Source: Pseudomonadota bacterium | Lineage (GTDB): Bacteria; Desulfobacterota; Desulfobacteria; Desulfobacterales; Desulfobacteraceae | Reading direction: 5' to 3' | DNA: 60,748 nucleotides | NCBI GenBank assembly: GCA_018821715.1 | Contig: JAHJLN010000049.1 | Span: forward strand, 1-60,748 | Shown here: positions 2,733 through 53,042 of the stretch, piece after piece | How positions within the stretch are numbered: the first letter of the stretch is position 1 | Layout of the letters: each line of letters begins with the position of its first letter | Position numbers and translations under genes: made by a program | Notes under the pieces: generated by a model | The model's database searches: none | The model's input: only the letters and a program-made list of their open reading frames with translations | What the model was told of the DNA's origin: nothing

Positions 2733-3734
2733 TCAGGGCAATGGTCGTGATGTCCGGCCTTTTATATACAGCCCCCGTCCCTGATTTTGAATGTCCTCTT
2801 TCCTTCGTGCCCGTGAGATGATATTGCGCAATGCCAAATCTGAAAGTCCGGTATTCTCTTTGATTTCCCGGAAACTGATGCCGTTTACCCGTCTCCGGCG
2901 GATCAGTTTGATCACTGTTTCATAGGAATCGACGTCTTGGGGGATTTTTGAAGACACGGGTTTGTTTTTTGGGGGTGACGCGGCTCGAATGACCGGTACT
3001 GAATCATCCAGGTTAATACCAAAGGCGGATGACAGATCTGCATCCCTGATAATCCTTTTGGAAGTGCGGGTTTTTGCCTTTTTCAGCAACTGATCGGCTT
3101 CACTGCGAATGACGCTTGACACAAGGTCTTCCTTGTTTGCCTTCCTGAGAAGAAAAAACAGGGAGGGGTCTGTATCCAGCCGTGCTCCCACTCCATAAAG
3201 CGTTGCGGCAACGTGCTTGCACATGTAGGCCCAGTCCGGGCAGGAACAGTCAAAGACGATGTCTTTCGGGGAGGGGAAAATACCGTTCCCCTGCTGTGTC
3301 AGGATGGTTTCCATGGCCTGGGGCAATGCCCCGTTTAAGAGGGCATCAAGGGAATCAATTTTTCCTTTGCACTGGTCAATAATTTTTTCCCATACAGCTT
3401 TTTTTAATGGTTTGATGGTTATTTTTACCTGGTACGGCGCAGCGTAAGACCCCTGGACAAGGGCAGAAATATTCCCGGATTCAATTTTCAGATCCAGAAC
3501 AGCGCCATGTCTCACATAGGAGCGGCCCCGTTCGATACGGTTGCTGAAGTCGGCATACCCTTCCAGGTTTGTATTCCATGCCTTGCCCCACCAGGATGCT
3601 GCCAGGGTGTTGCCGCAAATTTTCACGGGTGACAGGCCTGGATTTTTTTTCATGAGCTGTTTGATTTTTTTTTCTGCCCTGGCCTTTTTTTCAGCCACAC
3701 TGACATACTTTGGATATCCAAAACGATTGCCCAT
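2733..3734 (-). CDS. SWIM zinc finger protein, partner of the SNF2 ATPase
   Basis: A 333-residue protein with a SWIM zinc finger: Cys163, Cys165, Cys172 and His174 in a CSCPDWAYMCKH motif, the CxCx(n)CxH pattern expected. The N-terminus has a basic helix and an ASWWGKAWN motif typical of bacterial SWIM proteins encoded beside SNF2 helicases. The C-terminal ~70 residues are basic with a helix-turn-helix look (about 285-325), suggesting nucleic-acid binding. It lies 31 bases downstream of the SNF2 gene on the same strand, so the two are probably one transcript. A role with SNF2 in chromatin or RNA-polymerase remodelling is inferred from that pairing; the exact job is not known. Confidence 0.8.
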   Translation of the reverse strand: MGNRFGYPKYVSVAEKKARAEKKIKQLMKKNPGLSPVKICGNTLAASWWGKAWNTNLEGYADFSNRIERGRSYVRHGAVLDLKIESGNISALVQGSYAAPYQVKITIKPLKKAVWEKIIDQCKGKIDSLDALLNGALPQAMETILTQQGNGIFPSPKDIVFDCSCPDWAYMCKHVAATLYGVGARLDTDPSLFFLLRKANKEDLVSSVIRSEADQLLKKAKTRTSKRIIRDADLSSAFGINLDDSVPVIRAASPPKNKPVSSKIPQDVDSYETVIKLIRRRRVNGISFREIKENTGLSDLALRNIISRARRKEDIQNQGRGLYIKGRTSRPLP

Positions 3735-3765
3735 TATTTCCCTCTTTTTTAATTTGATTTTCTTG

Positions 3766-6432
3766 TCACAGCGTAAGGCTGAACATCTTCAACAGTTTTT
3801 TATCATCAAACTCTGTCATCCATCCCCCGGTGGTGTCCGGGATCACGGCTGCCGCCATCTCCTTTTTGCTTTCAATCATGGCATCAATATGGTCCTCAAC
3901 GGTCCCTTTTGTTATAAACTTGTGCACCAGCACCCCTTTTTGCTGGCCGATGCGAAAGGCCCTGTCCGTGGCCTGATTTTCAACTGCAGGATTCCACCAC
4001 CGGTCAAAATGGATCACATGGTTTGCCCGGGTCAGGTTGAGTCCGACACCTCCCGCTTTGAGGGAAAGAACCATGAAGGGAACATATCCCGGCCCCTGGA
4101 ACAGCTCGACAGCCTCAGCTCTTTTTTTTACAGTCATACTGCCATGGAGAAAGCAGCCCTTTTGATGAAAAATATCTTCCATAAAATTCACCAGGGGCAG
4201 GATCATTTCCTTGAACTGGGTAAACACAAGAACCCGTTCCCGCTTTGCATAAATGGTGTCGCACAATTCTTTGAGACGAATGAATTTCCCGCTTTCCTTT
4301 GGGTCAAATCCGCCGGTTCCCAGGTACTGATCCGGATGGTTACAGATCTGCTTGAACTTGATCAGGGACGTCAGAATAAGCCCCTTACGTTCTATTCCCC
4401 TGCCGGCCTGGGCCAGGCGTTTTTTTAACTGCTCTACAAAATCCATATACAGCACCACCTGATGCCGGCTGAGTTCAGGAAAGGTTTTCATTTCCACTTT
4501 GGCCGGCAGATCAGGTGCAATGGCAGGATCGGTTTTCATCCGCCTCAGAATATAGGGAGAGATGATTTTTTTCAAGCGCCTGTATCCTGAAGGATTTTTC
4601 TTTAACCCTGAAGCAAATGTTTTAAATGCCTTTGCACTGCCCAGAAATCCTGGATTGAGAAAATCAAACAGGGACCATAGGTCTGACAGACTGTTTTCAA
4701 TAGGGGTGCCGGTCATGATAATCCGGGTGTCGCCCTTAAGTTTTTTTACGCATTTTGTCTGTTTTGTTGACGGGTTCTTGATGGCCTGGGCTTCGTCCAG
4801 GATAATGCACCGCCAGTTGATTTTTTCCATCCATGGAACCCTTTGTGCCATGGCATAGGTGGTGATGACCAGATCAAACAAAAGGGAGTCGGGTGGTTTG
4901 GGCCCATTTTTTATAACTGCATCAGTGCTTCCGGGATGGGCCACGGCATAGGAAAGACCGGGCAGAAACCGTTGGATTTCATGTTCCCAGTTGGCAATCA
5001 GGGATGCCGGGACAATCAGAAGTGACATCCTGTCCGGTTCTTTCTTTTGAAGAAGGCTCAGCATGCCCAGCACCTGCAGGGTTTTGCCCAGGCCCATGTC
5101 GTCGGCCAGGCAGGCCCCGAATTTCAGGGAATCCAGGAATGAAAGCCAGTTGAGCCCTGTCTGCTGGTAGGGTCGCAGGGTTGCCCTGAAGGTTTGGGGT
5201 GCGATGGCGGTTCTTACCAGTTCCGGGTTTGACAATTGTTTTACCACCGCGCTCAGCCAGTTCCCATGGTCAATGGAAAGGTCGGTTTCATTATCTGTCA
5301 ACCGGAACCGTTCCGGGTGAAGCTGCAGCAACAGGGCATCTTTTATGGTTAATGCACCCTGGTCAGCCATTTCCATGGCTTTTTCATAGGCTTCAAGGAT
5401 CTGTTCAAGTCTTTTTGTATCCACTTCAACCCATCGGTTTTTGATCCAGGCAAGCCCGGCACTCTGGGACAAAATCGTCTTGGCTTCTTCCAGGGTGACA
5501 GGGTCATCCCCGATTAACAGATGAGCGTTAAAATCCAGGAGCGCGTCCATACCCACGTGGGTCGGTTTCAGATTTCCCATGCTGACGGACAGCCGCACTG
5601 CCGGTCGCTGGTTTTTCCACCAGTCCGGTATGCGGCAGATGATGCCGCAGGTTTCGAAAAGCGCCACCTGCAAAAGGAATTCATAGGCCTCCCGGCTGTC
5701 CCAGGCCAGGTGATGAAATAACTCCCCGGTGTCCATGAGATCTTTTATCAAGGGGCTTTGTTTTGCAGCCAGTGTTACCGTGGTCAACAATTCCAGGATG
5801 GATTCCCCGGAATATTCTTCAAGCGCATGGTGCAGGGGACGATGCTTTTTGGGGCTGTTTCCTTTTTTATCATCTGCATAGGTGGCAAGGAACTGGAAGG
5901 GGTAATCATCCTCCCGGCTTTCCACCAGATGAAAATAGACCCTTCCAGCCAGGTGAATATGGGGGCATAATTCTTTGAAATAATCCTTCACACTCCCGGG
6001 ATACCCCTGTATGCCTTGGATAAAGGTCCGGGTTAAGCCTTCCCAGATATGAGAAAGCAGATCCTGGGTAAGATATTCTCTCCCGATCATGAGTGGTGCC
6101 GCGTCAACAAAGCTGTTTAATTCTTTCGGATCACAGGAAAGGTCCGCACAATGCCGAACCGCTTCAATATCCGGATACCGGGCAACCGTGTCCAGAAATT
6201 GTCGCGAAACAGACCGGAAAAAGTCAAGGGAAGGGGACAATGCAATACGATCCTGGGAGCCTCCCAGATACAGAAGCCAGGTGTCAGGGGTCTTGCAATA
6301 GTGCTGATGGATTTGCCGGTTCAACAGGTGCTGCTTTTGACTGACCCGGTCGCCACTGCTTTCCCATGTGAGGCACAGGTCCCTGGGGGGAAGAATTTCA
6401 ACAACCAGTTCCTGATGGTTTTCAGCACCCAT
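3766..6432 (-). CDS. SNF2-family DNA-dependent ATPase/helicase
   Basis: An 888-residue Swi2/Snf2 ATPase. The N-terminal ~410 residues form the bacterial SNF2-associated region. The ATPase core follows: Walker A in ADDMGLGKT (443-451), Walker B DEAQ (546-549), motif III MTGTPIENS (573-581), and in the second RecA lobe a GGVGLNLTRA stretch and the motif VI segment ATDRAFRIGQ. Such proteins translocate on double-stranded DNA and displace bound proteins; bacterial relatives such as HepA/RapA act on RNA polymerase. The SWIM gene lies just downstream in the same direction. All catalytic motifs are present, so it should be active. Its target is not visible from sequence. Confidence 0.9.
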   Translation of the reverse strand: MGAENHQELVVEILPPRDLCLTWESSGDRVSQKQHLLNRQIHQHYCKTPDTWLLYLGGSQDRIALSPSLDFFRSVSRQFLDTVARYPDIEAVRHCADLSCDPKELNSFVDAAPLMIGREYLTQDLLSHIWEGLTRTFIQGIQGYPGSVKDYFKELCPHIHLAGRVYFHLVESREDDYPFQFLATYADDKKGNSPKKHRPLHHALEEYSGESILELLTTVTLAAKQSPLIKDLMDTGELFHHLAWDSREAYEFLLQVALFETCGIICRIPDWWKNQRPAVRLSVSMGNLKPTHVGMDALLDFNAHLLIGDDPVTLEEAKTILSQSAGLAWIKNRWVEVDTKRLEQILEAYEKAMEMADQGALTIKDALLLQLHPERFRLTDNETDLSIDHGNWLSAVVKQLSNPELVRTAIAPQTFRATLRPYQQTGLNWLSFLDSLKFGACLADDMGLGKTLQVLGMLSLLQKKEPDRMSLLIVPASLIANWEHEIQRFLPGLSYAVAHPGSTDAVIKNGPKPPDSLLFDLVITTYAMAQRVPWMEKINWRCIILDEAQAIKNPSTKQTKCVKKLKGDTRIIMTGTPIENSLSDLWSLFDFLNPGFLGSAKAFKTFASGLKKNPSGYRRLKKIISPYILRRMKTDPAIAPDLPAKVEMKTFPELSRHQVVLYMDFVEQLKKRLAQAGRGIERKGLILTSLIKFKQICNHPDQYLGTGGFDPKESGKFIRLKELCDTIYAKRERVLVFTQFKEMILPLVNFMEDIFHQKGCFLHGSMTVKKRAEAVELFQGPGYVPFMVLSLKAGGVGLNLTRANHVIHFDRWWNPAVENQATDRAFRIGQQKGVLVHKFITKGTVEDHIDAMIESKKEMAAAVIPDTTGGWMTEFDDKKLLKMFSLTL

Positions 6433-6726
6433 ATCTCTTACCTTTTTTTTACGCCGTTGTATGACAACTATAAGGTTTCATGGAGAATCTGAATATCAGA
6501 TAAGGCGGAAGGACGCAACCCGTCTGAATATAATTTATGCAGCAAAATTCAATTGATGAATACCTGAAATTACAGAATATGGAATATAACTTGATAGTTA
6601 AAAACAGTATATGATAAGCGTAATGATTAAACCAATGAATGAACAATGATAATTTGGATGCACCATGGTAATACATAAGGTGATCATTTTGAAAAATGGG
6701 GCACTTTTTAAATATAAAAGGGCATA

Positions 6727-7555: not shown

Positions 7556-8089
7556 ATGGACTACCAGAAATTCAAGATGGCCACAGGATGCCTGATTCCT
7601 TGTGTGCTGTTTGTCGTGGCGGCGGCAGCGGTATTTGTGCCGATGTTTACTCATGAGACCGGTTACGGGCTCTGGACCATTGGCGCACCGCTTTTAACGG
7701 GGTTATGTGCCGCAATTGTGGCGGTTTTCTTAAGTCGGCCCCTGCATCACTGGATGTTGACCCGGGAGCTTAAAAATGAGAACAGCAGGGTCAGACTTGC
7801 GGCTTGGCAGTCCGATGACCCGGCAGTGGAATTCTATGCATCAGCAGATGGAATCTGGTTTAACAAGAAACGGTACTACTGGCTTCACAGCCTTTTTCTG
7901 GAGCTGGAGGATCTGTTTGTCCAGCCAAAATCAGGGCAGATGTTTTTAATTTTCAAGTTCAGGGAAACCCACGGCCGTTCGGCCCATTATTTTGACATTG
8001 AAGTGCCGGTTCCTACAGGGTGTGAAAAAAAGGCCAAAACCCTTGTCGGCCGGATTTTAAAGGAGATAAAATATGGTATGGATGAATGA
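7556..8089 (+). CDS. Small membrane protein of unknown function
   Basis: A 177-residue protein with two N-terminal membrane segments (about 10-32 and 40-60, the second ending in LSRPLHHWM), then a soluble ~110-residue domain rich in aromatics (WFNKKRYYWLHSLF, then FRETHGRSAHYF). I do not recognise the family. The start is supported by an AGGAG sequence about ten bases before the ATG. Its last 17 bases overlap the TerC gene, so translation is probably coupled, and it may be an accessory to that membrane protein. Both may share a transcript with the methyltransferase gene upstream. Confidence 0.7.
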   Translation: MDYQKFKMATGCLIPCVLFVVAAAAVFVPMFTHETGYGLWTIGAPLLTGLCAAIVAVFLSRPLHHWMLTRELKNENSRVRLAAWQSDDPAVEFYASADGIWFNKKRYYWLHSLFLELEDLFVQPKSGQMFLIFKFRETHGRSAHYFDIEVPVPTGCEKKAKTLVGRILKEIKYGMDE

Positions 8090-8795
8090 TCCCCATGCCT
8101 GGATAGCGCTTGCAACCTTAACCGCACTTGAAATTGTTCTCGGGATAGACAATATCATTTTTATTTCCATCCTGGTGGAAAGGGTTGAAAAAGCAAAACG
8201 CAATAAGGCCAGGATTATCGGTCTTTCGCTTGCCATGATTACCAGGATCTGCCTGCTGTTGTCTTTAACATGGGTGATGGGATTAACAGATCATCTGTTT
8301 ACGCTTTATGGTCTTGATATATCCGGTCGGGATCTGATTATGATTTCAGGCGGCCTTTTCCTTATCTGGAAAAGCACCCATGAGATACATGCAAGTGTCG
8401 AGGGTGATAGGGCGGTAACGGCTGTCAAAGGCAAAAAAGCGTTTGGCGCTGTTTTGATCCAGATCGCTTTGATTGACATTGTTTTTTCGCTGGATTCGGT
8501 CATCACTGCCGTTGGAATGGCATCTCATATTCAGGTCATGATTGCTGCCGTTGTTATATCGGTCGGTGTCATGATGATCTCTGCCAAAGCCATTGGGGGG
8601 TTTGTTGAAGCGAATCCCACTATCAAGATCCTTGCCTTAAGTTTTTTGATCATGGTGGGCGTGGCACTCATTGGAGAGGGATTTGAATTTCATATTCCCA
8701 AAGGATATATTTACTTTTCCATGGCCTTTTCCATTGGTGTTGAAATCCTGAACATGAAGATGAGAAAAAAACGAAAGCGGATGGTTGATTTTTAA
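8073..8795 (+). CDS. TerC family integral membrane protein
   Basis: A 240-residue polytopic protein of the TerC/Alx family. The signature stretches are EIVLGIDNIIFISI near residue 20 and the mirror-image IDIVFSLDSVITAVGM near 150, each placing acidic and Asn/Ser residues within a membrane helix. Seven to eight hydrophobic helices are visible. Family members are linked to tellurite resistance, Mn2+ export and metal loading of exported proteins. The gene overlaps the preceding membrane-protein gene by 17 bases. The substrate is inferred from family only. Confidence 0.9.
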   Translation: MVWMNDPHAWIALATLTALEIVLGIDNIIFISILVERVEKAKRNKARIIGLSLAMITRICLLLSLTWVMGLTDHLFTLYGLDISGRDLIMISGGLFLIWKSTHEIHASVEGDRAVTAVKGKKAFGAVLIQIALIDIVFSLDSVITAVGMASHIQVMIAAVVISVGVMMISAKAIGGFVEANPTIKILALSFLIMVGVALIGEGFEFHIPKGYIYFSMAFSIGVEILNMKMRKKRKRMVDF

Positions 8796-8959: not shown

Positions 8960-11323
8960 ATGTCAATTTTTGAACAAAATAAAGTAAAAAACAAACCCAT
9001 CAATGGACAAGGCGGGTTAGGGAATGTGTCGGCACAGTTAAATCATTCCCTGGAAAATTTAATGAAAACAAAAGCAAGTCGAAATCGAGTTGTTGAGGAA
9101 ATAAAGGATTTTAATAGTTATGAATTGAGTGTTAACGGGCAGACGGTCAGTTGGTATCAATTGGAAAACGGGTTTAATGGTGCGCCCAAAGAAGGCATCA
9201 TCTGGGCCAAAAAACGTGATGGGGCACTCGAGATTTGTATTACCAGGAATCTTGTTGATCTTTTTGATTTTAACTACAAAGAATTTGATGAAAGAAAAAA
9301 GCATCTGCAAAAAACATCATGGCATGAAGACGATGAATTGAGCCTGCTGTCAAAAGGGATAAGCCCAGAAGAAGCGCATCAAAAGATGGAAGAAACGCTT
9401 CCGCTTGTGCCTATATGGATGGCAAATATTAAAGAGGAACCAAAGAGTGTTATTGAAAGGGTCAGGAGATTAAACGCTTTTGTGAAAACCCCGGAATTGG
9501 TCCGTACGTATTATCCTTATCCAATAAACGATCAAAAAGATTTCGAGGAATATACGCTATGGCTCACAACGCATAGCGGTATTAAGGTATGTCGCAAGCA
9601 GAATGCGGATTATCGTGAATTTTTAATGAATGCCCTTTGTTGGTTTTTTGACCGTTACTTTCGAGCAAGGGGTGAATATGACAACCCTCAGATTCTTCCG
9701 CCGGTGGCGTTTAGAGATACCAATTTTTATTTTGTTTATATTGACGGATATAAGGGTGTCCCGCAATATTATGGCGGTGGTATCATGACCATTACCGTGG
9801 AGTTGCCGGCTGAATACAACAAAGCAAGATCTGTTTTTGCCAAGGCCGGCATTAAGGTGGGTATGGAGGGCAGTGGATACAGGAATATTATCTATCCAAG
9901 GGAGGATGCCAGATTTTTAAGACTGCTCAATAAAATAGCCACCGTGAAAATCATTAATTTCATGGAACCCAATACTGTTATTGATAGTGAAGAAGTAAAA
10001 CGATATTTTTTATTTCACTCTGGGGATATCAAAAAAAGTTTAGGGGAAAAAGCGTATCAGTTTATGCAAAAAATACTCTTCATCCTTGATGAAGAATATT
10101 TGGATTGGAATAAAAAAGAACGACTGAGTCAAGATTTTATGACCTATGTTTCAACTTGGTTGATCGGCCATATAAAAGAATTTGAGGACAATAAAAATTG
10201 GCAAGTAAAAGTGATAAGAAAAACCGAAATAATATTGGAACAAGAAGAGAAATTTATTGAAAAAGAGGGGAGTGGGGATGATGAATTAAAGGATGAAAAA
10301 ACAAAAGCGGAAAAACTTGCAGAAATTGAGCAGCAAAGAATCGTTAAGCGTGCAGCACTCAGGCATGGTAACAGGGCATGGACTGAAGTAAAGCGCGCAG
10401 TGAAAATGCCGGACCTGATGAAAGGACAAAATCCAAATAAATTATTAAAAAGAACATTAACCATACCCGAAGAAAAAGCGTTAATTAAACTGTATCAGAA
10501 GTTTAACAATGGATTGGCCTTGGCTGTATTGATTCATGAATCAAGAAGTCGTTTGAGAAGCTATGTAGACTCAATTGCCCAGTATCGCCCGCATTTTCAA
10601 AAACATCTTCACGATTTGTTTGGCGTTGCCGAAGAAGTAATGCTGAAAAACGCTGATGAATATAATCTTAAATATGATGTTAAATTTATTTCCTTTGTCA
10701 GGGCTAAAGGAGACGTTAAGGGAGAGTTGATAAAATATGTTATCGCCCAGGGTCACATCACACAGCATTATACTTATATTTTAAAGGCCATACACGAAGT
10801 AGAGAATTTATTTTATCAAAAAAAGGGATATTATCCTAAATCATATGAAGCGCTGCAATCCTTTGATCCAAAATTCACTGAAAAAACGAAGATTACAAAA
10901 ATTACCTATAAGAATGCCATACTGTTAAGATCTGATAAACATGTTTCTTTGACGGATCGACACAGTCAAGGCGGTTCAGATGAGAGGTTGTGGCAGGATT
11001 TTATTGAAGATGAGACAGACAATTCACAAGAGAGGATAGAGCTGCATGAATTGATTGTAATCGCTTTTCAGCTGTTATACAACCATGATGATTGGGGGAG
11101 AAGTCAAAACAAGGACCGCGATTATGAATTTGTGTGTTTGCATAATGGGTTTGACCCTCAAACAGGCATTGTTCACAGACCTATAAATCTTGCTGCCATT
11201 GGCCGGACGAGCGGGCTTTCCAGAGAAAGGCAAAGACAAATTGCATCAAAATATACTGAGACCTTAAAAGGTATTCTGCTCGGGCTTTTAGATGTAACAA
11301 AAACTGTTTCAGAAAAGAAATGA
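8960..11323 (+). CDS. Large sigma-70-like protein with a long N-terminal extension of unknown function
   Basis: A 787-residue protein. Residues 1-480 resemble nothing I can name: soluble, aromatic-rich, with a YYGGGIMTITVELPAEYN block near 270-286 and a charged helix or linker at about 425-480. From about 500 it follows sigma-70 order. LTIPEEKALIK (500-510) fits the end of region 1.2. LRSYVDSIAQY (532-542) and a DLF...F block (552-576) fit 2.1-2.2. Residues 576-632 align without gaps to regions 2.3-3.0 of E. coli RpoD as remembered. SLTD...DERLWQDFIED (663-684) resembles the sigma finger (3.2). NLAAIGRTSGLSRERQRQI (743-761) fits the region 4.2 helix-turn-helix. The Trp pair of the -10 melting region (RpoD W433/W434) is Ala582/Lys583 here. 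The gene looks more AT-rich than the RND genes after it. No anti-sigma gene is adjacent. The start has AAAGGA four bases upstream. Active sigma function is inference. Confidence 0.72.
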   Translation: MSIFEQNKVKNKPINGQGGLGNVSAQLNHSLENLMKTKASRNRVVEEIKDFNSYELSVNGQTVSWYQLENGFNGAPKEGIIWAKKRDGALEICITRNLVDLFDFNYKEFDERKKHLQKTSWHEDDELSLLSKGISPEEAHQKMEETLPLVPIWMANIKEEPKSVIERVRRLNAFVKTPELVRTYYPYPINDQKDFEEYTLWLTTHSGIKVCRKQNADYREFLMNALCWFFDRYFRARGEYDNPQILPPVAFRDTNFYFVYIDGYKGVPQYYGGGIMTITVELPAEYNKARSVFAKAGIKVGMEGSGYRNIIYPREDARFLRLLNKIATVKIINFMEPNTVIDSEEVKRYFLFHSGDIKKSLGEKAYQFMQKILFILDEEYLDWNKKERLSQDFMTYVSTWLIGHIKEFEDNKNWQVKVIRKTEIILEQEEKFIEKEGSGDDELKDEKTKAEKLAEIEQQRIVKRAALRHGNRAWTEVKRAVKMPDLMKGQNPNKLLKRTLTIPEEKALIKLYQKFNNGLALAVLIHESRSRLRSYVDSIAQYRPHFQKHLHDLFGVAEEVMLKNADEYNLKYDVKFISFVRAKGDVKGELIKYVIAQGHITQHYTYILKAIHEVENLFYQKKGYYPKSYEALQSFDPKFTEKTKITKITYKNAILLRSDKHVSLTDRHSQGGSDERLWQDFIEDETDNSQERIELHELIVIAFQLLYNHDDWGRSQNKDRDYEFVCLHNGFDPQTGIVHRPINLAAIGRTSGLSRERQRQIASKYTETLKGILLGLLDVTKTVSEKK

Positions 11324-11386
11324 TACAAAACGCAGAAGTCTATCCGGGCTTTGAAGAATTCAAGCTACAACTATCAGGGGAACCCT

Positions 11387-12742
11387 ATGAAAATTATAAA
11401 AAAACTGTTGATCATTATCCCTGTCGTCTGCGGAATTGCGTTTTTTGCCGTAATGACATTAAATAAAAAACCGCCGGTTCGCCTTGAGAACCGGGAGCGG
11501 GTCCAGGCTGTCCGGGTGATCCCTTTGGAAAAGATGGCGGTTGTACCCCGGGTGATTTCCTATGGGTATGTTGAGGCAGACCGGACCTGGCAGGCGATTT
11601 CCGAGGTCAGCGGTAAAATTGTTTCAGTGAACGAGAACTTAAAAAAAGGCCATTTTATAAAAAAGGACGAGATCCTGTTTAAGATTGATACCACATCCTA
11701 TGGTTTGGCTGAAAGCCGAGGGGAGGCGGAGTTGATGAATGTGGATGCCCGGCTCAAGGAACTGGATCAATCCCGGAAAAATACGGAACGCCTCCTGGCC
11801 ATTGAAAAAAAATCCCTTGCCAGTGCCGGCCAGGAGCTGAGACGCAAACGCGAATTATTTAAAAACGGGTATATTTCCACATCTGATCTTGAAAAAGAAG
11901 AAAGAACCTTTTTAGGTCATCAGACCACTGTGAATAATCTGCAGAATGCTCTGGATCTGATCCCGTCCCAGAAAAAGGCGCTGCTGGCCCAGAAAAAATC
12001 CGGGGAATCCACAGTGACGGAGCGAAAGCTGGATGTTGCCAGAACGGAAATTAGAGCCCCCTTTGACTGCAGGTTGTCTGTTATCAATGTTGAACTCTAC
12101 CAGTTTGCAGCCGCCGGAACCGTTCTGGTTGAGGCTGAAAGTATTGACAGTGCGGAAATCCCGGTTTCACTGACCCCTAAAAGTTTTTTAAGCCTCCTGC
12201 CGCGGGATCATCGGGCCAGTATTGATCAGATGCTGGATATGGAAACCATCCGCCGGGCCATCGGCATTACCGCCAGGGTCAGGCTTCCCATGGATGTGGA
12301 ATTTCCCATTGAATGGGAGGGGACGTTTTCCCGGACCAGCGAATCCATGGATCTTAAGACCGGCGCCCTTACCATCTATATTACGGTGGATAAACCCTAT
12401 GAAAATGTGATTCCAGGCAAACGGCCGCCCCTTATGACCAATATGTATGTTCAAGTGGAACTTAAAGGCAGGTCATTGTCGGAGCGGTTTGTGGTGCCCA
12501 GAAGTGCGGTTCACGATACTGCAGTTTATATCTGCACGTCTGAAAACCGGCTTGAAATACGGCCGGTGAAAGTTGAGTTTTATATGGGGAATGTGGCGGT
12601 GCTGTCCCAGGGACTTGAGGTCGGCCAGCGCCTTGTGCTGGCGGATCTTATGCCGGCCATAGAGGGGATGCTGTTGAAACCGGTTGAGGCAAAAGAGGTT
12701 GTGGCATCCTTGAAGCAACAGGCAACAGGGGAGACCGATTAA
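11387..12742 (+). CDS. RND efflux periplasmic adaptor (membrane fusion protein)
   Basis: A 451-residue HlyD/AcrA-type adaptor. The N-terminus is a lysine-rich start and one membrane anchor or signal segment (IIKKLLIIIPVVCGIAFFAV). A split biotinyl-lipoyl domain (first half with SGKIVSVNENLKKGHFIKKDEILFK) flanks an alpha-hairpin of about 110 residues, then beta-barrel and membrane-proximal domains (RFVVPRSAVHD). It links an inner-membrane RND pump to an outer-membrane channel. I chose ATG 11387 rather than the upstream in-frame TTG 11351 because AGGGGAA lies just before it and the signal segment then begins normally. The permease starts one base after its stop. No TolC-type channel gene is in the window. 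Confidence 0.88.
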   Translation: MKIIKKLLIIIPVVCGIAFFAVMTLNKKPPVRLENRERVQAVRVIPLEKMAVVPRVISYGYVEADRTWQAISEVSGKIVSVNENLKKGHFIKKDEILFKIDTTSYGLAESRGEAELMNVDARLKELDQSRKNTERLLAIEKKSLASAGQELRRKRELFKNGYISTSDLEKEERTFLGHQTTVNNLQNALDLIPSQKKALLAQKKSGESTVTERKLDVARTEIRAPFDCRLSVINVELYQFAAAGTVLVEAESIDSAEIPVSLTPKSFLSLLPRDHRASIDQMLDMETIRRAIGITARVRLPMDVEFPIEWEGTFSRTSESMDLKTGALTIYITVDKPYENVIPGKRPPLMTNMYVQVELKGRSLSERFVVPRSAVHDTAVYICTSENRLEIRPVKVEFYMGNVAVLSQGLEVGQRLVLADLMPAIEGMLLKPVEAKEVVASLKQQATGETD

Positions 12743-12743
12743 G

Positions 12744-15700
12744 ATGAACGCCTTTAAACAGATCATCTCCTACATGTGTGCCCATCCCACGGCAGCCAAT
12801 CTCCTGATGCTGTTGTTCCTGGCCCTGGGTGCCATCTCTGTGACCGATTTGAAACGGGAAACCTTTCCGGATTTTTCCATCAACGCAGTTGAAATTTCGG
12901 TCACCTATCCCGGGGCCACTGCCGATGATGTGGAGTCCTCGGTATGCCGGCGCATTGAAGATGCCATTGACAGTGTGGGCAATATAGCCGAGATCAAGAG
13001 CACGGCCATGGAAAACCGGGCGTCTGTTCTGGTGGAAATGGTGGAAGGCAATGATATGATTGAGTTTTTCAATGACATTAAAACCCAGGTAGAGTCTATC
13101 CGTGATTTCCCGGGTGAAGTGGAAGATGTGATTGTCAAACGGGTCAACCGGACAGATCAGGTGGTGTCTGTGGCAGTGACAGGCCCCATGACCCCGCTGC
13201 ATTTAAAGGCGTTCTGCGAAGATTTAAAAGACCGGTTAAAGCGAATTGACAGGGTCTCTCAGGTGGAAATCCTGGGATTTTCCGATCATGAATTTTTAAT
13301 TGAGATCCCGTTTTACAACATGATGCGGCTGGGTCTTTCCGTGGCAGATATTGAAGCGGCTGTGGCGGCCCAGAACCTGGATCTGCCGGCCGGCAGCCTG
13401 GAAACCAGGGAGTCTGATATCCTGATCCGGTTTTCAGAAGAAAGAAAAACCCTTCATGAAATGGAGAATCTCGTTGTGGTTTCCTCTGAAACAGGGGCTG
13501 AAAACCGCCTGGGGGATATTGCAAAAATTTTTGACCGGTTCAAGGATGATGAAAATAAGATCCTGTTTGACGGAAAACGGGCCGGGCTTCTCCAGATTAA
13601 CAAAACCAAGTCTGAAGATGCTTTGAAAATCATGGATGCAGTAACGGTATTTTTGGCACAAGAGCAGGCCCGGGCACCTTCGGGGGTTGTGTTTGCCATT
13701 ACCCAGAATGTGTCCAAGATTGTCCGGGACCGGCTGTTGATGTTGATAAAAAATGCCGTCCAGGGGCTGATCCTGGTGTTTCTGGCCATGCTGCTCTTTT
13801 TTCCGTTCGGCTTTTCCTTCTGGGTGGCCATGGGATTGCCCGTGTCTTTTTTCCTGACCTTTTTCTTTATGAAACACCTGGGGCTTTCCATCAATATGCT
13901 TTCCATGGTGGGGCTGTTGATCGGACTGGGGCTTCTCATGGATGATGCCATTGTGATTGCTGAAAATATTGCTTCTCACCTTGAGAAGGGCAAAAATGCG
14001 TTTAACGCCACGGTGGACGGTATTTCTGAAGTGGCAGCAGGGGTGTTTTCCTCGTTTTTAACCACTGTGTTTATTTTCGGGGCCTTAGGGCTGAGCATGG
14101 CCGGGGATATTGGAAAGGTGCTTTATGTCATACCCGTTATATTGATTTTGACCCTTAGTGTCAGTATTGTGGAGGCGTTCTTTATTCTGCCTAACCATTT
14201 GTCCCACTCCCTTTCAAAGCATTCAGGCGGCATACAGAAAGGCAGGTTTCGTCAGAAGGTGGATCAAGGGCTTGACTGGATAAAAGAAACGCTTCTGGGA
14301 CGGATCGTTGATGCGGCAGTGAATTACAGATATCTGTTTATCGGACTGGTCGTCTTTGCCTTTATCGCATCTGTTGCCATGATTGCCGGCGGGCGCCTGA
14401 AGATTCAAGCCTTCCCGGATATTGAAGGGGATGTCCTGCAGGCAAGGATTCTGTTTCCCCAGGGAACACCCCTTGAAAGGACCCAAACCTATGTGGACCA
14501 GATGGTGACGGCAGCGCAAAAGATGAATGAAATGCTTTCCTCGTCCCAGCCGGACAAGGCTGATGTGGTAAAGCATATCAGTGTATTGTACAACACCAAT
14601 GCAGATGCAGGGGAAACAGGCACCCATGTGGCAACCATATCTCTGGATCTGCTAAATGCAGAAAACAGGTCCGGTACCATGGAGGATATCATCACCACGT
14701 GGCGTACTTTTGCCGGGGATATCCCGGATGCCCTTGCTATTGCATTCAAGGAACCGGGTATCGGGCCCGGCGGGCTGCCCATAGAAATCCGGCTCAAGGG
14801 AAAAACCCTTTCTGACTTGAAGCTTGCGTCAACCCGGCTGATCAACTGGTTTTATTCCTATGAAGGAGTGTCGGACCTGTATGATGATCTTCGGCCGGGA
14901 AAGCCTGAAATCCAGGTAAAACTCAAAGAAGGCGCAAAGATCAGGGGGTTTGATGCCAGGATGGTGTCAAAGCAGTTAAGAGCTGCCTTTTATGGTGCCA
15001 CGGCAAGTGAAATAATTGTGAAAGATGAATCCTATGAGGTCAATCTTCGCATGGCAGGGGCTGACAGGGACAGTATGGACGGCCTTGAAAATTTTTATCT
15101 CATGGACGGCAAGGGCGGGCGGGTTCCGTTGAACACGGTGGCATCCATTACCCAAAGCCGGGGCTATGCCGGGATAAAAAGGGTGGATTCTGACAGGACC
15201 GTTACGGTGACAGGGGATGTGGACACACGCATTGCCAATGCCGTAAATATTATCGCAGATACAAAGGCAAGATTCCTGCCGGAATTAAAAAAACAATTTC
15301 CAGATATCATGATCGAACTTCAAGGCCAGGAAAAGGAACTGAAATCCTCCATGGGCGGGATGATAAAGGCCTTTGCCATCGGTATTTTCGGGGTGTTCTG
15401 TCTGTTGAGCTTCCAGTTTCGGTCCTTTCAGGAGCCCCTGGTGGTCATGGTGACCATTCCCTTTGCCTTTATCGGTGTTGTCTGGGGTCATGTGATCATG
15501 GGGATAGATCTGTGCATGCCCAGCATCCTGGGGTTTGTATCCCTGGCCGGCATTGTGGTGAATGATTCCATCCTCCTGATCAGTTTTATTAAATTAAATA
15601 CTGCCATGGGGAACTCCGCAAAAGAAGCGGGGAAGCTTGCATCAAGGGAGAGATTCAGGGCGGTGATGCTGACTTCGGTGACCACCATTGCAGGGCTTTT

Positions 15701-15869
15701 ACCCCTTCTTTCTGAAAGATCCATGCAGGCCCAGATTCTTATCCCCCTTGCCTGTTCCATTGTGTTCGGGCTGTTGATGTCCACGATACTGGTGCTGGTG
15801 GTGGTGCCCTGTCTTTACACCATTCTGGCGGATTTTAACCTGGTGAGGATTAAGACTCAGGATCTTTAA
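12744..15869 (+). CDS. RND family efflux transporter permease (AcrB/MexB-like)
   Basis: A 1041-residue inner-membrane pump of usual RND length. It has the duplicated architecture: a first membrane helix near residue 14-35, a large periplasmic loop (to ~335), helices 2-6, a short linker, helix 7 (~530), a second periplasmic loop (~560-855) and helices 8-12. Helix 4 carries LIGLGLLMDDAIVIAEN, with the acidic pair needed for proton coupling. FPDFSINAVEISVTYPGA near the N-terminus is a standard RND block. The gene sits one base behind the adaptor, with which it should form a tripartite pump for drugs, lipids or metabolites. The substrate cannot be read from sequence. Confidence 0.92.
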   Translation: MNAFKQIISYMCAHPTAANLLMLLFLALGAISVTDLKRETFPDFSINAVEISVTYPGATADDVESSVCRRIEDAIDSVGNIAEIKSTAMENRASVLVEMVEGNDMIEFFNDIKTQVESIRDFPGEVEDVIVKRVNRTDQVVSVAVTGPMTPLHLKAFCEDLKDRLKRIDRVSQVEILGFSDHEFLIEIPFYNMMRLGLSVADIEAAVAAQNLDLPAGSLETRESDILIRFSEERKTLHEMENLVVVSSETGAENRLGDIAKIFDRFKDDENKILFDGKRAGLLQINKTKSEDALKIMDAVTVFLAQEQARAPSGVVFAITQNVSKIVRDRLLMLIKNAVQGLILVFLAMLLFFPFGFSFWVAMGLPVSFFLTFFFMKHLGLSINMLSMVGLLIGLGLLMDDAIVIAENIASHLEKGKNAFNATVDGISEVAAGVFSSFLTTVFIFGALGLSMAGDIGKVLYVIPVILILTLSVSIVEAFFILPNHLSHSLSKHSGGIQKGRFRQKVDQGLDWIKETLLGRIVDAAVNYRYLFIGLVVFAFIASVAMIAGGRLKIQAFPDIEGDVLQARILFPQGTPLERTQTYVDQMVTAAQKMNEMLSSSQPDKADVVKHISVLYNTNADAGETGTHVATISLDLLNAENRSGTMEDIITTWRTFAGDIPDALAIAFKEPGIGPGGLPIEIRLKGKTLSDLKLASTRLINWFYSYEGVSDLYDDLRPGKPEIQVKLKEGAKIRGFDARMVSKQLRAAFYGATASEIIVKDESYEVNLRMAGADRDSMDGLENFYLMDGKGGRVPLNTVASITQSRGYAGIKRVDSDRTVTVTGDVDTRIANAVNIIADTKARFLPELKKQFPDIMIELQGQEKELKSSMGGMIKAFAIGIFGVFCLLSFQFRSFQEPLVVMVTIPFAFIGVVWGHVIMGIDLCMPSILGFVSLAGIVVNDSILLISFIKLNTAMGNSAKEAGKLASRERFRAVMLTSVTTIAGLLPLLSERSMQAQILIPLACSIVFGLLMSTILVLVVVPCLYTILADFNLVRIKTQDL

Positions 15870-39343: not shown

Positions 39344-40672
39344 ATGGCAAAACATGAGACTCCTTTACTGGACCAGCTGGAATCCGGCCCATGGCCTAGC
39401 TTTGTCTCTGACCTGAAAGAACAGGCTGAAAGAAGAGCAAAGAATGTAGAAGGCGTTGAATTCCAGATTCCCCAGGATTGTGTTGATGATCTTTTGGGTG
39501 TTTTGGAGCTGTCTTACAAGCATGGCAGAACGCACTGGAAACATGGTGGTATTGTAGGTGTTTTCGGTTATGGCGGTGGTGTTATCGGCAGATATTGCGA
39601 TCAACCCAAAATATTTCCCGGTGTAGAGCATTTTCATACAATGCGTGTGAATCAGCCTGCTGGTAAATACTATACTACTGATTACCTGAGATCATTGACC
39701 AAGCTTTGGGACCTTAGAGGTTCCGGTGTGACCAATATGCATGGTGCAACCGGTGATATCATTCTCCTGGGTACCACTACACCTCAAATTGAGGAAATAT
39801 TCTGGACACTGACCCATGACATGGGCCAGGATCTTGGTGGATCAGGTTCCAACCTGAGAACTCCTGCAGACTGTCTTGGCCAGTCAAGATGTGAATATGC
39901 ATGTTATGATACCAATGCATTGGTTTATTTTTTGACCAACAATTACCAGGATGAGCTTCATCGCCCGGCGTTCCCGTACAAGTTTAAATTCAAACTTGAT
40001 GGCTGCCCCAATTGTTGCGTTGCATCTATTGCACGTTCGGACATGTCCTTTATCGGTACCTGGAAAGATGATATAAGGATTGATCAGGATGCCGTCAATA
40101 AATATGTTGAAAATGATGCCGCATATCCTGCAAATGCCGGTGCTTACCGCGGCAGCAGAGACTGGGGCGCCTTTGACCTTGAAAAAGAGGTCCTAGGGCT
40201 GTGTCCAACAAAATGCATGATGTTTAAAAACAAAAAACTCTTTATCGATAATGCCAACTGTACTCGTTGCATGCATTGTATCAATGTAATGCCAAGAGCC
40301 CTGAAAATCGGAAAACAAACCGGTCTTTCAATTCTTGTCGGTGCAAAAGCACCGATTCTTGATGGTGCCCAGATGGGTTCCCTGCTTGTTCCTTTTGTTG
40401 AAGTTAATCCTGACAATGATTACGAAGCAATTACAGAAGTCATTGAAAATGTATGGGATTGGTGGATGGAAGAGGGTAAAAACCGTGAAAGACTTGGTGA
40501 ACTGATCATGCGTCAGGGATTCCAGAAACTTCTTGAAGTAACTGGTATAGATGCAATGCCACAGCACGTACAATACCCGAGAACCAACCCCTATATCTTC
40601 TGGAAAGAAGATGAGGTTGAAGGCGGCTGGGAACGTGATGTTGACGAATACAGAAAACACCATCTTAGATAG
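39344..40672 (+). CDS. dsrA: Dissimilatory sulfite reductase alpha subunit
   Basis: A 442-residue DsrA. With DsrB it reduces sulfite to the sulfur level using siroheme and [4Fe-4S] clusters, the terminal step of sulfate respiration. The siroheme-cluster Cys residues are in CLGQSRCEYACYD and LDGCPNCCVASIARSD. A ferredoxin domain is inserted near the C-terminus (LCPTKCMMF; CTRCMHCINVMP). The start has GGAGG nine bases upstream, and codons are of the highly expressed kind. dsrB starts 15 bases after its stop. Length and motifs are normal, so it should be fully active. Confidence 0.98.
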   Translation: MAKHETPLLDQLESGPWPSFVSDLKEQAERRAKNVEGVEFQIPQDCVDDLLGVLELSYKHGRTHWKHGGIVGVFGYGGGVIGRYCDQPKIFPGVEHFHTMRVNQPAGKYYTTDYLRSLTKLWDLRGSGVTNMHGATGDIILLGTTTPQIEEIFWTLTHDMGQDLGGSGSNLRTPADCLGQSRCEYACYDTNALVYFLTNNYQDELHRPAFPYKFKFKLDGCPNCCVASIARSDMSFIGTWKDDIRIDQDAVNKYVENDAAYPANAGAYRGSRDWGAFDLEKEVLGLCPTKCMMFKNKKLFIDNANCTRCMHCINVMPRALKIGKQTGLSILVGAKAPILDGAQMGSLLVPFVEVNPDNDYEAITEVIENVWDWWMEEGKNRERLGELIMRQGFQKLLEVTGIDAMPQHVQYPRTNPYIFWKEDEVEGGWERDVDEYRKHHLR

Positions 40673-40687
40673 AAAGGGAGAATTATA

Positions 40688-41836
40688 ATGGCATTTATTT
40701 CTACTGGTTATAATCCAGCCAAACCGATGGAAAACAGAATTACCGACATCGGTCCAAAAGACTATAACGATTTTTATCCTCCTGTGATTGCTAAAAACAA
40801 AGGCAAATGGTCTCATCATGAAATTCTTGAGCCGGGTGTCCTTGTGCATGTTGGTGATTCCGGAGATGAATTATATACCGTAAGAGTTGGTGGTGCCCGC
40901 CTGATGTCTACCGGTCATATCAACGAAATTTGTGATATTGCTGATAAACATTGTGACGGTTATGTTCGTTTTACCACCCGTAACAATATTGAATTCATGG
41001 TTGACTCAAAAGATAAGGTTGAACCCCTTAAAAACGATCTGGCTTCCAGAAAGTTTGAGGGTGGTTCCTTTAAGTTCCCCATCGGCGGAACCGGGGCCGG
41101 CATCACCAATATCGTTCATACCCAGGGCTGGATTCACTGCCACACCCCTGCAAGTGATGCATCCGGTACGGTAAAAGCTACCATGGATGAATTGTTTACT
41201 GATTTCCAGGACATGAGACTTCCGGCACAGCTGAGAGTTTCCATGGCATGCTGCCTGAACATGTGTGGTGCGGTTCATTGTTCTGATATCGCTATTCTTG
41301 GCTATCACAGAAAACCGCCAATGCTGGATCATGAATACCTTGATAAAGTTTGTGAAATTCCTTTGGCTGTTTCTGCCTGCCCGACAGCAGCGATCAAACC
41401 TGCAAAAGTAAAACTTGCCGACGGCAAAGAAGTAAAATCCGTTGAAGTTAAAAACGAAAGATGCATGTACTGTGGTAACTGCTACACCATGTGTCCTTCC
41501 ATGCCTCTTGCTGATACAGAAGGTGATGGTATCGTTCTCATGGCGGGTGGTAAGGTTTCCAACAGAATTTCCGATCCAAAATTCTCTAAAGTTGTTGTCG
41601 GCTTTTTGCCCAATGAAATGCCAAGATGGCCTTCAATGACAAAAGCGATCAACCAGATTGTCAACGCATATTCAAATGGTGCGAACAAGTATGAACGTCT
41701 GGGTGACTGGGCAGAAAGAATCGGATGGGAAAAATTCTTTGAAGCATGTGAACTTGAATTTACACATCACCTGATCGATGATTTCCGTCAGCAGGCTTAC
41801 ATGAGCTGGCGTCAATCAACTCAGTTCAAGTTCTAA
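40688..41836 (+). CDS. dsrB: Dissimilatory sulfite reductase beta subunit
   Basis: A 382-residue DsrB, partner of DsrA in the alpha2-beta2 enzyme. It has the cluster-binding [14 protein letters not shown] and [13 protein letters not shown], plus a ferredoxin domain [17 protein letters not shown]. Active siroheme is normally bound by this half of the enzyme. An AGGGAGAA ribosome site precedes the ATG. A strong hairpin lies between its stop and dsrD, which likely sets the subunit ratio of the transcripts. Confidence 0.98.
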
Positions 41837-50757: not shown

Positions 50758-51840
50758 ATGGCTGAAATTGATGCTTTTTTTAAGCTGATGCATGAGCAGG
50801 GCGCTTCCGATCTCCACCTGGCTTCGGGCCAGCAACCCGCCATCAGACTTCATGGTGATATTGAACGCATTAAATACGAGACCCTGACCAGTGATAAACT
50901 CAGAGGGCTGTTGTATGAAATCACTTCCCAGGAGAAAATCAAGACCTTTGAAGAAACAGGAGATGTGGATTTCGGTTATGAGATTCCAGGGCTTGCCAGA
51001 TACAGGGCAAATTATTTTATGCAAAAAAGCGGTGTTTCAGCAGTTTTTCGTGAGATCCCGTCTGAAATATTGACAGCAGAACAGCTGGGGCTTCCCCCGG
51101 TTATTTCAAAACTGGCTGACCTTCCAAGGGGACTTGTCCTGGTTACGGGACCAACCGGTTCCGGTAAGTCGACCACCTTGGCCGCTATTATTGATCAGGC
51201 CAACAGAAACAGAAAAGATCATATTATCACTGTGGAAGACCCCATCGAGTTCGTGCACAGAAGTCAGAGCTGTATTGTGAACCACCGGGAGGTGGGACTG
51301 CACACACAGACCTTTTCAGCAGCACTTCGGGGGGCATTGCGTGAAGACCCGGATATTATTCTTGTGGGTGAGCTAAGGGATCTTGAAACGATTTCTCTTG
51401 CCATAGAAGCGGCATCCACAGGTCATCTGGTCTTTGGAACCCTGCATACCTCTTCTGCCGCCAAAACCGTTGACAGAATTATTGAAGTGTTTCCCTCCAC
51501 GGAACAGGCCCAGATACGATCGACATTGTCGGATGGCCTGCGGGCGGTTGTCGCCCAGACATTGTTTAAGAGAATTGATAAAAGGGGTCGGTGTGCGGCT
51601 CTGGAAATTCTTGTGGCAACCCCTGCTGTACGAAATCTTATCCGGGAAGCTAAAACACACCAGATCCCCTCCATGATTCAGACAGGAAAACAATACGGGA
51701 TGCAATTGCTGGATGATGCCATCATGCAGCTGTATAAAAAAGGGTGGATCAGCCCGGATGAGGCATATGGCAAGGCAAATAACAAATCCTTGTTCAGACC
51801 GTTCTTAAAGAATCCGCCGGCTGATTTTACAGAAGCTTAA
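50758..51840 (+). CDS. pilT: Type IV pilus retraction ATPase PilT
   Basis: A 360-residue PilT. It has the N-terminal ASDLHLASGQQPAIRLHGD block, Walker A GPTGSGKSTT, the Asp box HIITVEDPIEFVH, Walker B DPDIILVGELRD, the His box SLAIEAASTGHLVFGTLHT, and the PilT signature AVRNLIREAKTHQIPSMIQTG needed for retraction. It powers pilus retraction and twitching. No pilin or PilB gene is in the window. A second paralogue follows 38 bases later. Confidence 0.94.
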   Translation: MAEIDAFFKLMHEQGASDLHLASGQQPAIRLHGDIERIKYETLTSDKLRGLLYEITSQEKIKTFEETGDVDFGYEIPGLARYRANYFMQKSGVSAVFREIPSEILTAEQLGLPPVISKLADLPRGLVLVTGPTGSGKSTTLAAIIDQANRNRKDHIITVEDPIEFVHRSQSCIVNHREVGLHTQTFSAALRGALREDPDIILVGELRDLETISLAIEAASTGHLVFGTLHTSSAAKTVDRIIEVFPSTEQAQIRSTLSDGLRAVVAQTLFKRIDKRGRCAALEILVATPAVRNLIREAKTHQIPSMIQTGKQYGMQLLDDAIMQLYKKGWISPDEAYGKANNKSLFRPFLKNPPADFTEA

Positions 51841-51878
51841 AAACCAGTCTTTATCCGTTTAATTTTAAGGAAGACGGC

Positions 51879-53042
51879 ATGAAAAAACAACAGATTGACC
51901 ATATTCTTTCCAAAATGCTGGACTCCCATGACAATGTTTCAGATTTGAACTTCACCCCGGGCAAACCGCTGCAGGTTGAAAGTTCGGGAGAATTGGTTGC
52001 AGTGAACATAGAGCCGGATTTTAAATTACTGACACCCTTTCAGACTGAAATATTTGCTTTGAATTTGATTAATAACAACCGAAAATTAACTGAAACGCTT
52101 ATCAGAGAAGGATCTTGCGACCTGTCCTATCAACTGGGAAATAAAGCGCGGTTCAGGGTGAATATATTTTCAAGATCCGGCAAGTATTCCATTGTCCTAA
52201 GAAAGCTTGAAACAAGAATCCCCACAATTGATGAGCTGAATCTGCCCAAGGCATTTCATAAAATGTCTGAAGAAAGAAACGGTATTATTTTTGTTACAGG
52301 AGCGACCGGTTCCGGAAAATCAACATCCCTTGCAGCGCTGTTGGATAAAATAAATGTAACCAAGTCCGTTCATGTCATCACCCTTGAAGATCCCATTGAA
52401 TATCAGCATTCCCAGAAAAAAGCCACATTTAACCAACGAGAGCTGGGAGCTGATTTTGATGCCTTTGCAACGGGATTGAGGGCTGCATTGCGGCAGGCAC
52501 CAAAAGTGATCCTGGTGGGGGAGATGCGTGACAGGGAAACCGTGGAAATTGGTCTTTCTGCCGCTGAAACAGGTCATCTGGTTCTTTCAACATTGCATAC
52601 CGTAGATGCCGGCCAGACCATTAACCGTGTTCTGGGCATGTTTTCCACTGAAGAAGAAAAACAGATCAGAATCCGACTGGCAGATACCATCCGATGGATT
52701 GTGTCCCAGAGATTATTGCCAAAGATCGGCGGCGGCAGGGTGGCGGCCTTTGAAATTATGGGGTCCAATCTGAGGGTAAAAGATTCCATTCTCCATGGGG
52801 AATCTGAAGGAAAGACATTCAATGATATTATTACCTCAGGAAAGGCACAGGATATGGTTTCTTTTGATGAATATATTGTTTCTCTTTATGAAGAGGGAAT
52901 GGTCAGTGAGGATATTGCATCGTCCTATGCATCCAGGAAAGACATTGTCGGCAGAGGGCTTGATTCAATAAAAAGCTCCCGTGGCGAGACCACAACAAAG
53001 ATTGATTCATTGGAAATTGATCATGGATATCAAGGAAGTTAA
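51879..53042 (+). CDS. pilU: PilT/PilU-type ATPase
   Basis: A 387-residue second PilT-like ATPase. Walker A GATGSGKSTS, Asp box HVITLEDPIEYQH, Walker B APKVILVGEMRD and His box IGLSAAETGHLVLSTLHT are intact. The AIRNLIRE signature of PilT is not seen (GSNLRVKDSILHGESEGK stands near that position), and a ~45-residue C-terminal tail (SRKDIVGRGLDSIKSSRG) is added, both more like PilU. PilU assists PilT in retraction against load. It is probably co-transcribed with pilT and the next genes. Confidence 0.85.
   Translation: MKKQQIDHILSKMLDSHDNVSDLNFTPGKPLQVESSGELVAVNIEPDFKLLTPFQTEIFALNLINNNRKLTETLIREGSCDLSYQLGNKARFRVNIFSRSGKYSIVLRKLETRIPTIDELNLPKAFHKMSEERNGIIFVTGATGSGKSTSLAALLDKINVTKSVHVITLEDPIEYQHSQKKATFNQRELGADFDAFATGLRAALRQAPKVILVGEMRDRETVEIGLSAAETGHLVLSTLHTVDAGQTINRVLGMFSTEEEKQIRIRLADTIRWIVSQRLLPKIGGGRVAAFEIMGSNLRVKDSILHGESEGKTFNDIITSGKAQDMVSFDEYIVSLYEEGMVSEDIASSYASRKDIVGRGLDSIKSSRGETTTKIDSLEIDHGYQGS

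Follow-up and report, generated by a model that had tools for sequence, protein, structure and literature searches.

A strongly diverged sigma-70-like core joined to a large N-terminal region in a rare protein of sulfate-reducing bacteria, a possible self-regulated transcription switch

What might be the role of a 787-residue protein whose C-terminal part follows the order of a sigma-70 factor, and whose N-terminal half matches no family in the libraries searched? This question is raised by a gene located at 8960..11323 (+ strand) in a stretch of 60,748 nucleotides (the window, meaning here the whole stretch of DNA analyzed) from contig JAHJLN010000049.1 of the Desulfobacteraceae assembly GCA_018821715.1. 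The protein it encodes is called P0001 below. A sequence-only reading of this DNA had proposed that an unannotated sigma-70-like core lies within this larger protein, and this proposal was borne out: homology to sigma-70 regions 1.2 to 4.2 runs, in the same order, through the C-terminal ~290 residues. The open reading frame (ORF) listed at this position is a real coding gene, its ratio of nonsynonymous to synonymous divergence (dN/dS) from the only homologue found being 0.14, which reflects purifying selection. P0001 is a rare protein of sulfate-reducing bacteria which may be a self-regulated transcription switch.

The homology of the C-terminal part was established using family models, alignments and structure predictions. 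When the 18,950 NCBIfam models were searched with the full protein at E-values of up to 1 and with C-terminal fragments at E-values of up to 10, only sigma factors were listed (three models for P0001, two for the homologue, and nine and ten for the fragments). The best full-length match was with TIGR02980 (SigBFG; E 4.6e-6, 26.5 bits), and TIGR02393 (RpoD_Cterm) matched two C-terminal fragments at E 6.3e-5 and 9e-4. When residues 481-787 were compared by BLASTP with 150 ORFs of the loci fetched, the best match was the FliA-like ORF L004 (E 9e-7), covering residues 51-248 of its 254, and the identity with L004 and with a second FliA-like ORF, L003, was 22-25% over the aligned stretches. Among the sigma loci, 541 were confirmed, 80 kept and 30 prepared; 26 were used in alignment A4 and 18 served as reference sigmas in A6, all picked by eye for diversity. 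The hhalign comparison between A6 and the two-sequence C-terminal alignment A5 gave a probability of 93 (P 3.4e-7, 241 columns), and none of 100 column shuffles was as good (best 29.2 vs 54.1), the probability amounting to 0.1 with the reversed alignment and to 0.2 with the N-terminal half of P0001. A sigma-like predicted fold had been set beforehand as a test, and all 50 PDB matches listed for the AlphaFold model of the C-terminal part come from RNA-polymerase-sigma entries, the top VIA match being the SigB of S. aureus. Residues 164-192 of this model (659-687 of P0001, including the region 3.2 finger) have a predicted local distance difference test score (pLDDT) below 50. The full-length model, which was built from two sequences, has a mean pLDDT of 35 and an unusable N-terminal half, and its five best Foldseek matches are chains of RNA-polymerase-sigma entries (E 0.08-0.23). 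The order 1.2-2-3-3.2-4.2 previously suggested for residues ~500-770 is thus upheld by NCBIfam, by BLASTP to L004, by hhalign and by the structure matches.

The regions of a sigma-70 factor follow one another along this core, on the + strand: region 1.2 and domain 2 (residues 496-599, 10445..10756), domain 3 (residues 600-660, 10757..10939, supported by MAFFT, hhalign and structure matches), the DFIED motif of the region 3.2 finger (residues 680-684, 10997..11011) and the helix-turn-helix of region 4.2 (residues 743-770, 11186..11269). The DFIED motif, which belongs to a finger serving inside RNA polymerase, is retained and collinear with the DFIED/DFIxD of other sigmas (MAFFT, hhalign). In region 4.2, LSRERQRQI, which we take to lie in the part carrying the -35 reading residues, aligns to VTRERIRQI (MAFFT, hhalign), and the gapless alignment claimed for residues 743-770 was reproduced by MAFFT. 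In region 2.2, D552 and L553 are retained, whereas the I, Q, E, and N of DLIQEGN, presumably the beta-prime clamp contact motif, are altered (MAFFT); the FliA-like ORFs depart from this motif too.

The other gapless alignment in the sequence-only reading, that of residues 576-632 with RpoD, did not hold. Since MAFFT, BLASTP and hhalign all require a 2-residue insertion at 582-585 (just after K583 in MAFFT and BLASTP, and at 582-583 in hhalign), a better alignment exists than the gapless one; in MAFFT and hhalign, a further gap, a deletion of 3 residues, falls near 598-602. The statement that Ala582/Lys583 replace the Trp pair was correct inasmuch as none of the methods places a Trp in these columns; the columns correspond to Ala582-Lys583 in MAFFT and BLASTP, but to Gly584-Asp585 in hhalign. 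Read by eye, the same columns contain Leu-Arg in L003 and L004, Tyr-Arg in L011, and Phe-Trp in L010. Because three ORFs called FliA-like by reading alone (L003, L004, and L011) also lack the Trp pair, its lack in P0001 is nothing special, and the idea that it betokens a different promoter class or an absence of melting loses its ground.

Several results weigh against the identification of the core as a sigma factor. A hidden Markov model (HMM) of 27 full-length Desulfobacterota RpoDs does not rank P0001 and its homologue above shuffled copies, phmmer found no sigma among the PDB sequences, and neither protein reaches the curated NCBIfam cut-offs; with the full-length homologue, TIGR02980 gave only E 0.018 and 14.8 bits, the best model being a SigC one (E 1.8e-4). 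In Pfam, no sigma family, and indeed nothing at all, was found in P0001. The fact that Pfam and the 27-RpoD profile both miss the core points to a large divergence: the core is a strongly diverged sigma, and not a close relative of RpoD. As regards the known groups, the scores of 26.5 bits (P0001) and 14.8 bits (homologue) are below the 234.35-bit cut-off of the SigB/SigF/SigG subfamily (TIGR02980), where P0001 was therefore not filed. Group 1 (RpoD) does not fit either, in view of the TIGR02393 scores of 18.9 and 22.7 bits versus a cut-off of 354, the shuffle-like ranking by the 27-RpoD HMM and the lack of the Trp pair. Extracytoplasmic function (ECF, group 4) sigmas have sigma 2 and sigma 4 but no sigma 3, whereas a domain-3 region is present in P0001; those of the ECF41 type have a C-terminal extension of the SnoaL type, whereas the extension of P0001 is N-terminal and gave no SnoaL match in Pfam.

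The single other copy was detected at locus L002 (JAAEKY010000264.1, G611:C262, from the metagenome-assembled genome Desulfobacteraceae bacterium Bco_6), in a member of the same genus as the window; it encodes 838 residues and is 78% identical. No third copy was found in 86 genomes of the family (26 of them from the genus), 291 of the order, 389 of the class (searched with a profile), or 297 of the phylum, these sets overlapping each other. Otherwise, the genome searches brought up two ordinary sigma ORFs (E 3.6e-4 and 5.5e-4) and, in G338, a match to the leader of the L002 protein (E 0.005); a scan of genome contigs, which detects close relatives only, yielded L002 alone.

The two loci have only this gene in common. 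Blastn of L002 (16.8 kb) against the window matched 9004..11311 (+) with L002 6473-8777 at 81.5% DNA identity, in a block that is almost exactly coding, and what tblastx added in other places were scraps not exceeding 30 bits. In the window copy, the block runs from codon 17, with the start codon lying outside it, to the stop codon, where it fades. Its flanks are unrelated, and nothing evident was found in a repeat search at its borders. No other gene was common to both loci in the 6.3 kb upstream and 8 kb downstream examined in L002, where the copy sits between permease-like and oxoprolinase-like genes, as read by eye. Codons 1-16 of the window copy (8960..9007, +) form a leader without any counterpart in the homologue, which has a 54-codon leader of its own (protein alignment A1). 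Residues 14-56 of this L002 leader (6312-6476) match the start (~residues 12-55) of L045 with 44% identity (E 4e-10 in a small set), and a search of G611 with L045 recovered the leader at E 2e-6. From its HTHSDH motif, we take L045 to be a hydrolase with the metallo-beta-lactamase fold, the remainder of which had no match in the 20 kb around the L002 copy or in the window. The L002 leader looks like the beginning of a metallo-hydrolase gene that has been joined in frame to the sigma-like block. Since all five codons differing within codons 17-35 are synonymous, this part is translated in both copies.

Divergence between the copies was estimated over residues 17-784 (767 aligned codons, NG86 values), and the whole block gave dN 0.115 and dS 0.836, a ratio of about 0.14 which indicates that both copies are functional. 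Constraint is strongest in region 2 (dN 0.055, dS 0.995, ratio 0.055), and residues 601-660, in domain 3, are similarly conserved (0.072 and 1.236, ratio 0.058); the values are 0.132 and 0.797 in residues 17-480 and 0.090 and 0.896 in residues 501-784. The dS of the RpoDs of the same two genomes is 1.40, versus 0.84 in the shared block. In addition, the G+C content at third codon positions (GC3) of the P0001 gene, 0.359, is the lowest of the 22 window ORFs measured (the TerC-family gene has 0.477 and the adaptor gene of the efflux system 0.556), whereas that of the L002 copy, 0.319, fits its five neighbours at 0.29-0.39. The lower dS and the GC3 contrast in the window suggest, on the basis of one reference gene and of composition, that the gene may have come from a GC-poor source by a transfer postdating the separation of the species.

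The N-terminal region (residues 17-430, 9008..10249, +) is of unknown fold: residues 17-480 gave no convincing family match in Pfam, NCBIfam, PHROGs, or PADLOC. Its dN/dS is well below 1, its amino acid identity with the homologue is 0.72-0.80 depending on the sub-segment, and there are 3 Cys within residues 1-480. It is followed by a charged linker (residues 431-495, 10250..10444, +), which is predicted to be helical, the secondary structure being of low confidence. A LAGLIDADG-like domain at ~255-330 was considered and rejected, since the hhalign probability was at most 1.7, in the wrong register, with a LAGLIDADG_3 profile of eight sequences (8 of 9 loci, L162 being left out because of its incomplete flank), and Pfam gave no match. 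The most likely role of the N-terminal region would be the control of the sigma core: the two loci have no second gene in common and thus give no hint of a conserved anti-sigma gene, and this region, which is itself constrained, is the natural candidate. ECF41 (PMC3426412) and OrbS (PMC9023288) provide parallels, although their control regions are C-terminal.

Since all the domains are present, constraint is strongest in region 2 and region 4.2 is intact, the core may best be read, from its sequence, as that of a working alternative sigma factor. The explanation we lean towards, with some reserve, is that P0001 is a strongly diverged sigma-70 alternative factor, nearest to group 3 (FliA/SigB-F-G), which has moved horizontally and whose ~480-residue N-terminal region controls the core. 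The C-terminal core would bind core RNA polymerase, and P0001 would lead it to promoters read by region 4.2, which is close to the sigma-70 -35 reader, and by the divergent region 2; the N-terminal region would act as an anti-sigma, masking or exposing the core upon a signal, and the gene would have passed between lineages as a coding cassette. It is conceivable, if unlikely, that P0001 is a one-protein "sensor-sigma", in which a new fold of ~450 N-terminal residues replaces the anti-sigma and which spreads as a start-less cassette and comes to be expressed where it fuses in frame to the beginnings of local genes; the hydrolase-like leader of L002 might illustrate this. We are equally doubtful that P0001 is a sigma-derived DNA-binding protein that is no longer a sigma subunit, its region 4.2 and helical core binding DNA so as to regulate or mark sites without promoter opening, and its beta-prime clamp contact being lost. 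This would agree with the altered contact residues of region 2.2, in the role assumed above, and with the strong overall divergence, invisible to Pfam and the 27-RpoD HMM; but a lost interface leaves the constraint on region 2 unexplained, the region 3.2 finger motif is retained, and the FliA-like L003 and L004 are without most of the same region 2.2 residues.

The two unrelated loci, the GC3 contrast in the window, the dS below that of RpoD and the cassette-like borders would also be expected of a sigma factor from a mobile element or phage (a late-gene sigma, for example) left behind in two genomes. We think this improbable, since no relative of P0001 was found at E-values of up to 0.01 among 50,697 phage and 72,556 plasmid records, its halves yielded merely three scraps (E 4 to 9) in the same records at E-values of up to 10, PHROGs gave no match, and no copy was detected in viral contigs by close-relative patterns, a scan confined to close relatives, nor any match by two single-sequence sigma queries; furthermore, the window has no tRNA and its other scanned genes look metabolic, transport, signalling, or helicase. 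Lastly, instead of a sensor, the N-terminal region could be a targeting module, which would bind DNA, RNA, or protein and recruit the sigma core, and with it RNA polymerase, to particular sites. Its size and the constraint acting independently on it would suit this, and accessory modules of other kinds fused to sigma cores are described in the available excerpt of PMC11119718. This is a very unlikely explanation, however, as the library searches recognized no nucleic-acid-binding domain, the LAGLIDADG-like domain was not supported and no Rfam family reached the gathering threshold within the window.

As regards the surroundings, the P0001 gene is preceded by a TerC-family gene (8073-8795) and followed by resistance-nodulation-division efflux genes (11351-15869), all on the same strand (Pfam, NCBIfam), and promoter- and terminator-like sites around it are no more numerous than in shuffles. 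Homologues of the TerC-family gene (+) occur in 3 of the 25 other genomes of the genus, one being a 42-residue piece with a stop; a tblastx comparison of the surroundings of the two full-length ones (18 kb each) with the first 25 kb of the window, in search of an empty site, gave no other clear shared gene. At 2733-6432 (-), a protein with a sub-threshold SWIM zinc-finger match, the C-terminal part of which shows a weak ECF-sigma match (E 0.0019, NCBIfam), adjoins a DUF3670/SNF2 helicase, for which good scores were also obtained with the ZorD and DpdE defence models of PADLOC. The presence of this helicase 2.5 kb away raised the possibility of a defence role for P0001, which was rejected, P0001 having no PADLOC match. 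Further along the + strand, two adjacent proteins with nitrite/sulfite reductase domains (39344-41836) are presumably DsrA and DsrB (dissimilatory sulfite reductase), which is consistent with a sulfate reducer, and a tandem pair of type II/IV secretion ATPase genes is located at 50758-53042.

Provided that its C-terminal part does function together with RNA polymerase, P0001 would be an alternative sigma whose control is probably built in, via a region without known relatives; it would then provide a tractable example of sigma regulation gained without an anti-sigma partner, and its N-terminal domain would be a new target for structure determination. P0001 is also a reminder that a complete 1.2-4.2 sigma core can escape annotation based on Pfam. 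None of the titles and abstract openings listed from the open-access literature describes this protein, and the view that no sigma factor of such architecture has been described stands for the N-terminal region, in the libraries and literature searched; it has to be given up for accessory terminal domains as such, which are known from sigma-70 proteins (PMC11119718) and from ECF41 (PMC3426412), here and below as far as the available excerpts of the papers go. The new elements are this N-terminal region and the fact that it is joined to a core which is complete, diverged and group-3-like. The sigma 2-3-4 order is usual in group 3 (PMC4598750), and P0001 resembles the sigmas of this group (FliA, SigB/SigF/SigG) in this order, in its best matches (TIGR02980 and L004), in the lack of a Trp pair and in its top VIA match with SigB; it differs from them in its ~480 extra N-terminal residues, its score of 26.5 bits versus a cut-off of 234.35 and its 22-25% identity with L004 and L003. 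ECF41 sigmas carry a fused C-terminal regulatory extension, so that control lies inside the sigma protein (PMC3426412), and P0001 likewise combines a sigma core with a large fused extension and no obvious anti-sigma partner, but it has sigma 3, and its extension, located at the N-terminus, is without a match among the families searched. Regulation is also built into OrbS, a sigma factor with an on-board iron sensor (PMC9023288), which, however, is an ECF sigma using C-terminal cysteines, whereas P0001 has a large N-terminal region with the few Cys residues mentioned above. In cyanobacteria, there are sigma-70 proteins bearing accessory domains at the N- or the C-terminus (PMC11119718); like P0001, they have an accessory region outside the sigma core, but the domains named for them are recognized ones (DUF6596, NB-ARC, WD40, and others), whereas the region carried by P0001 is not.
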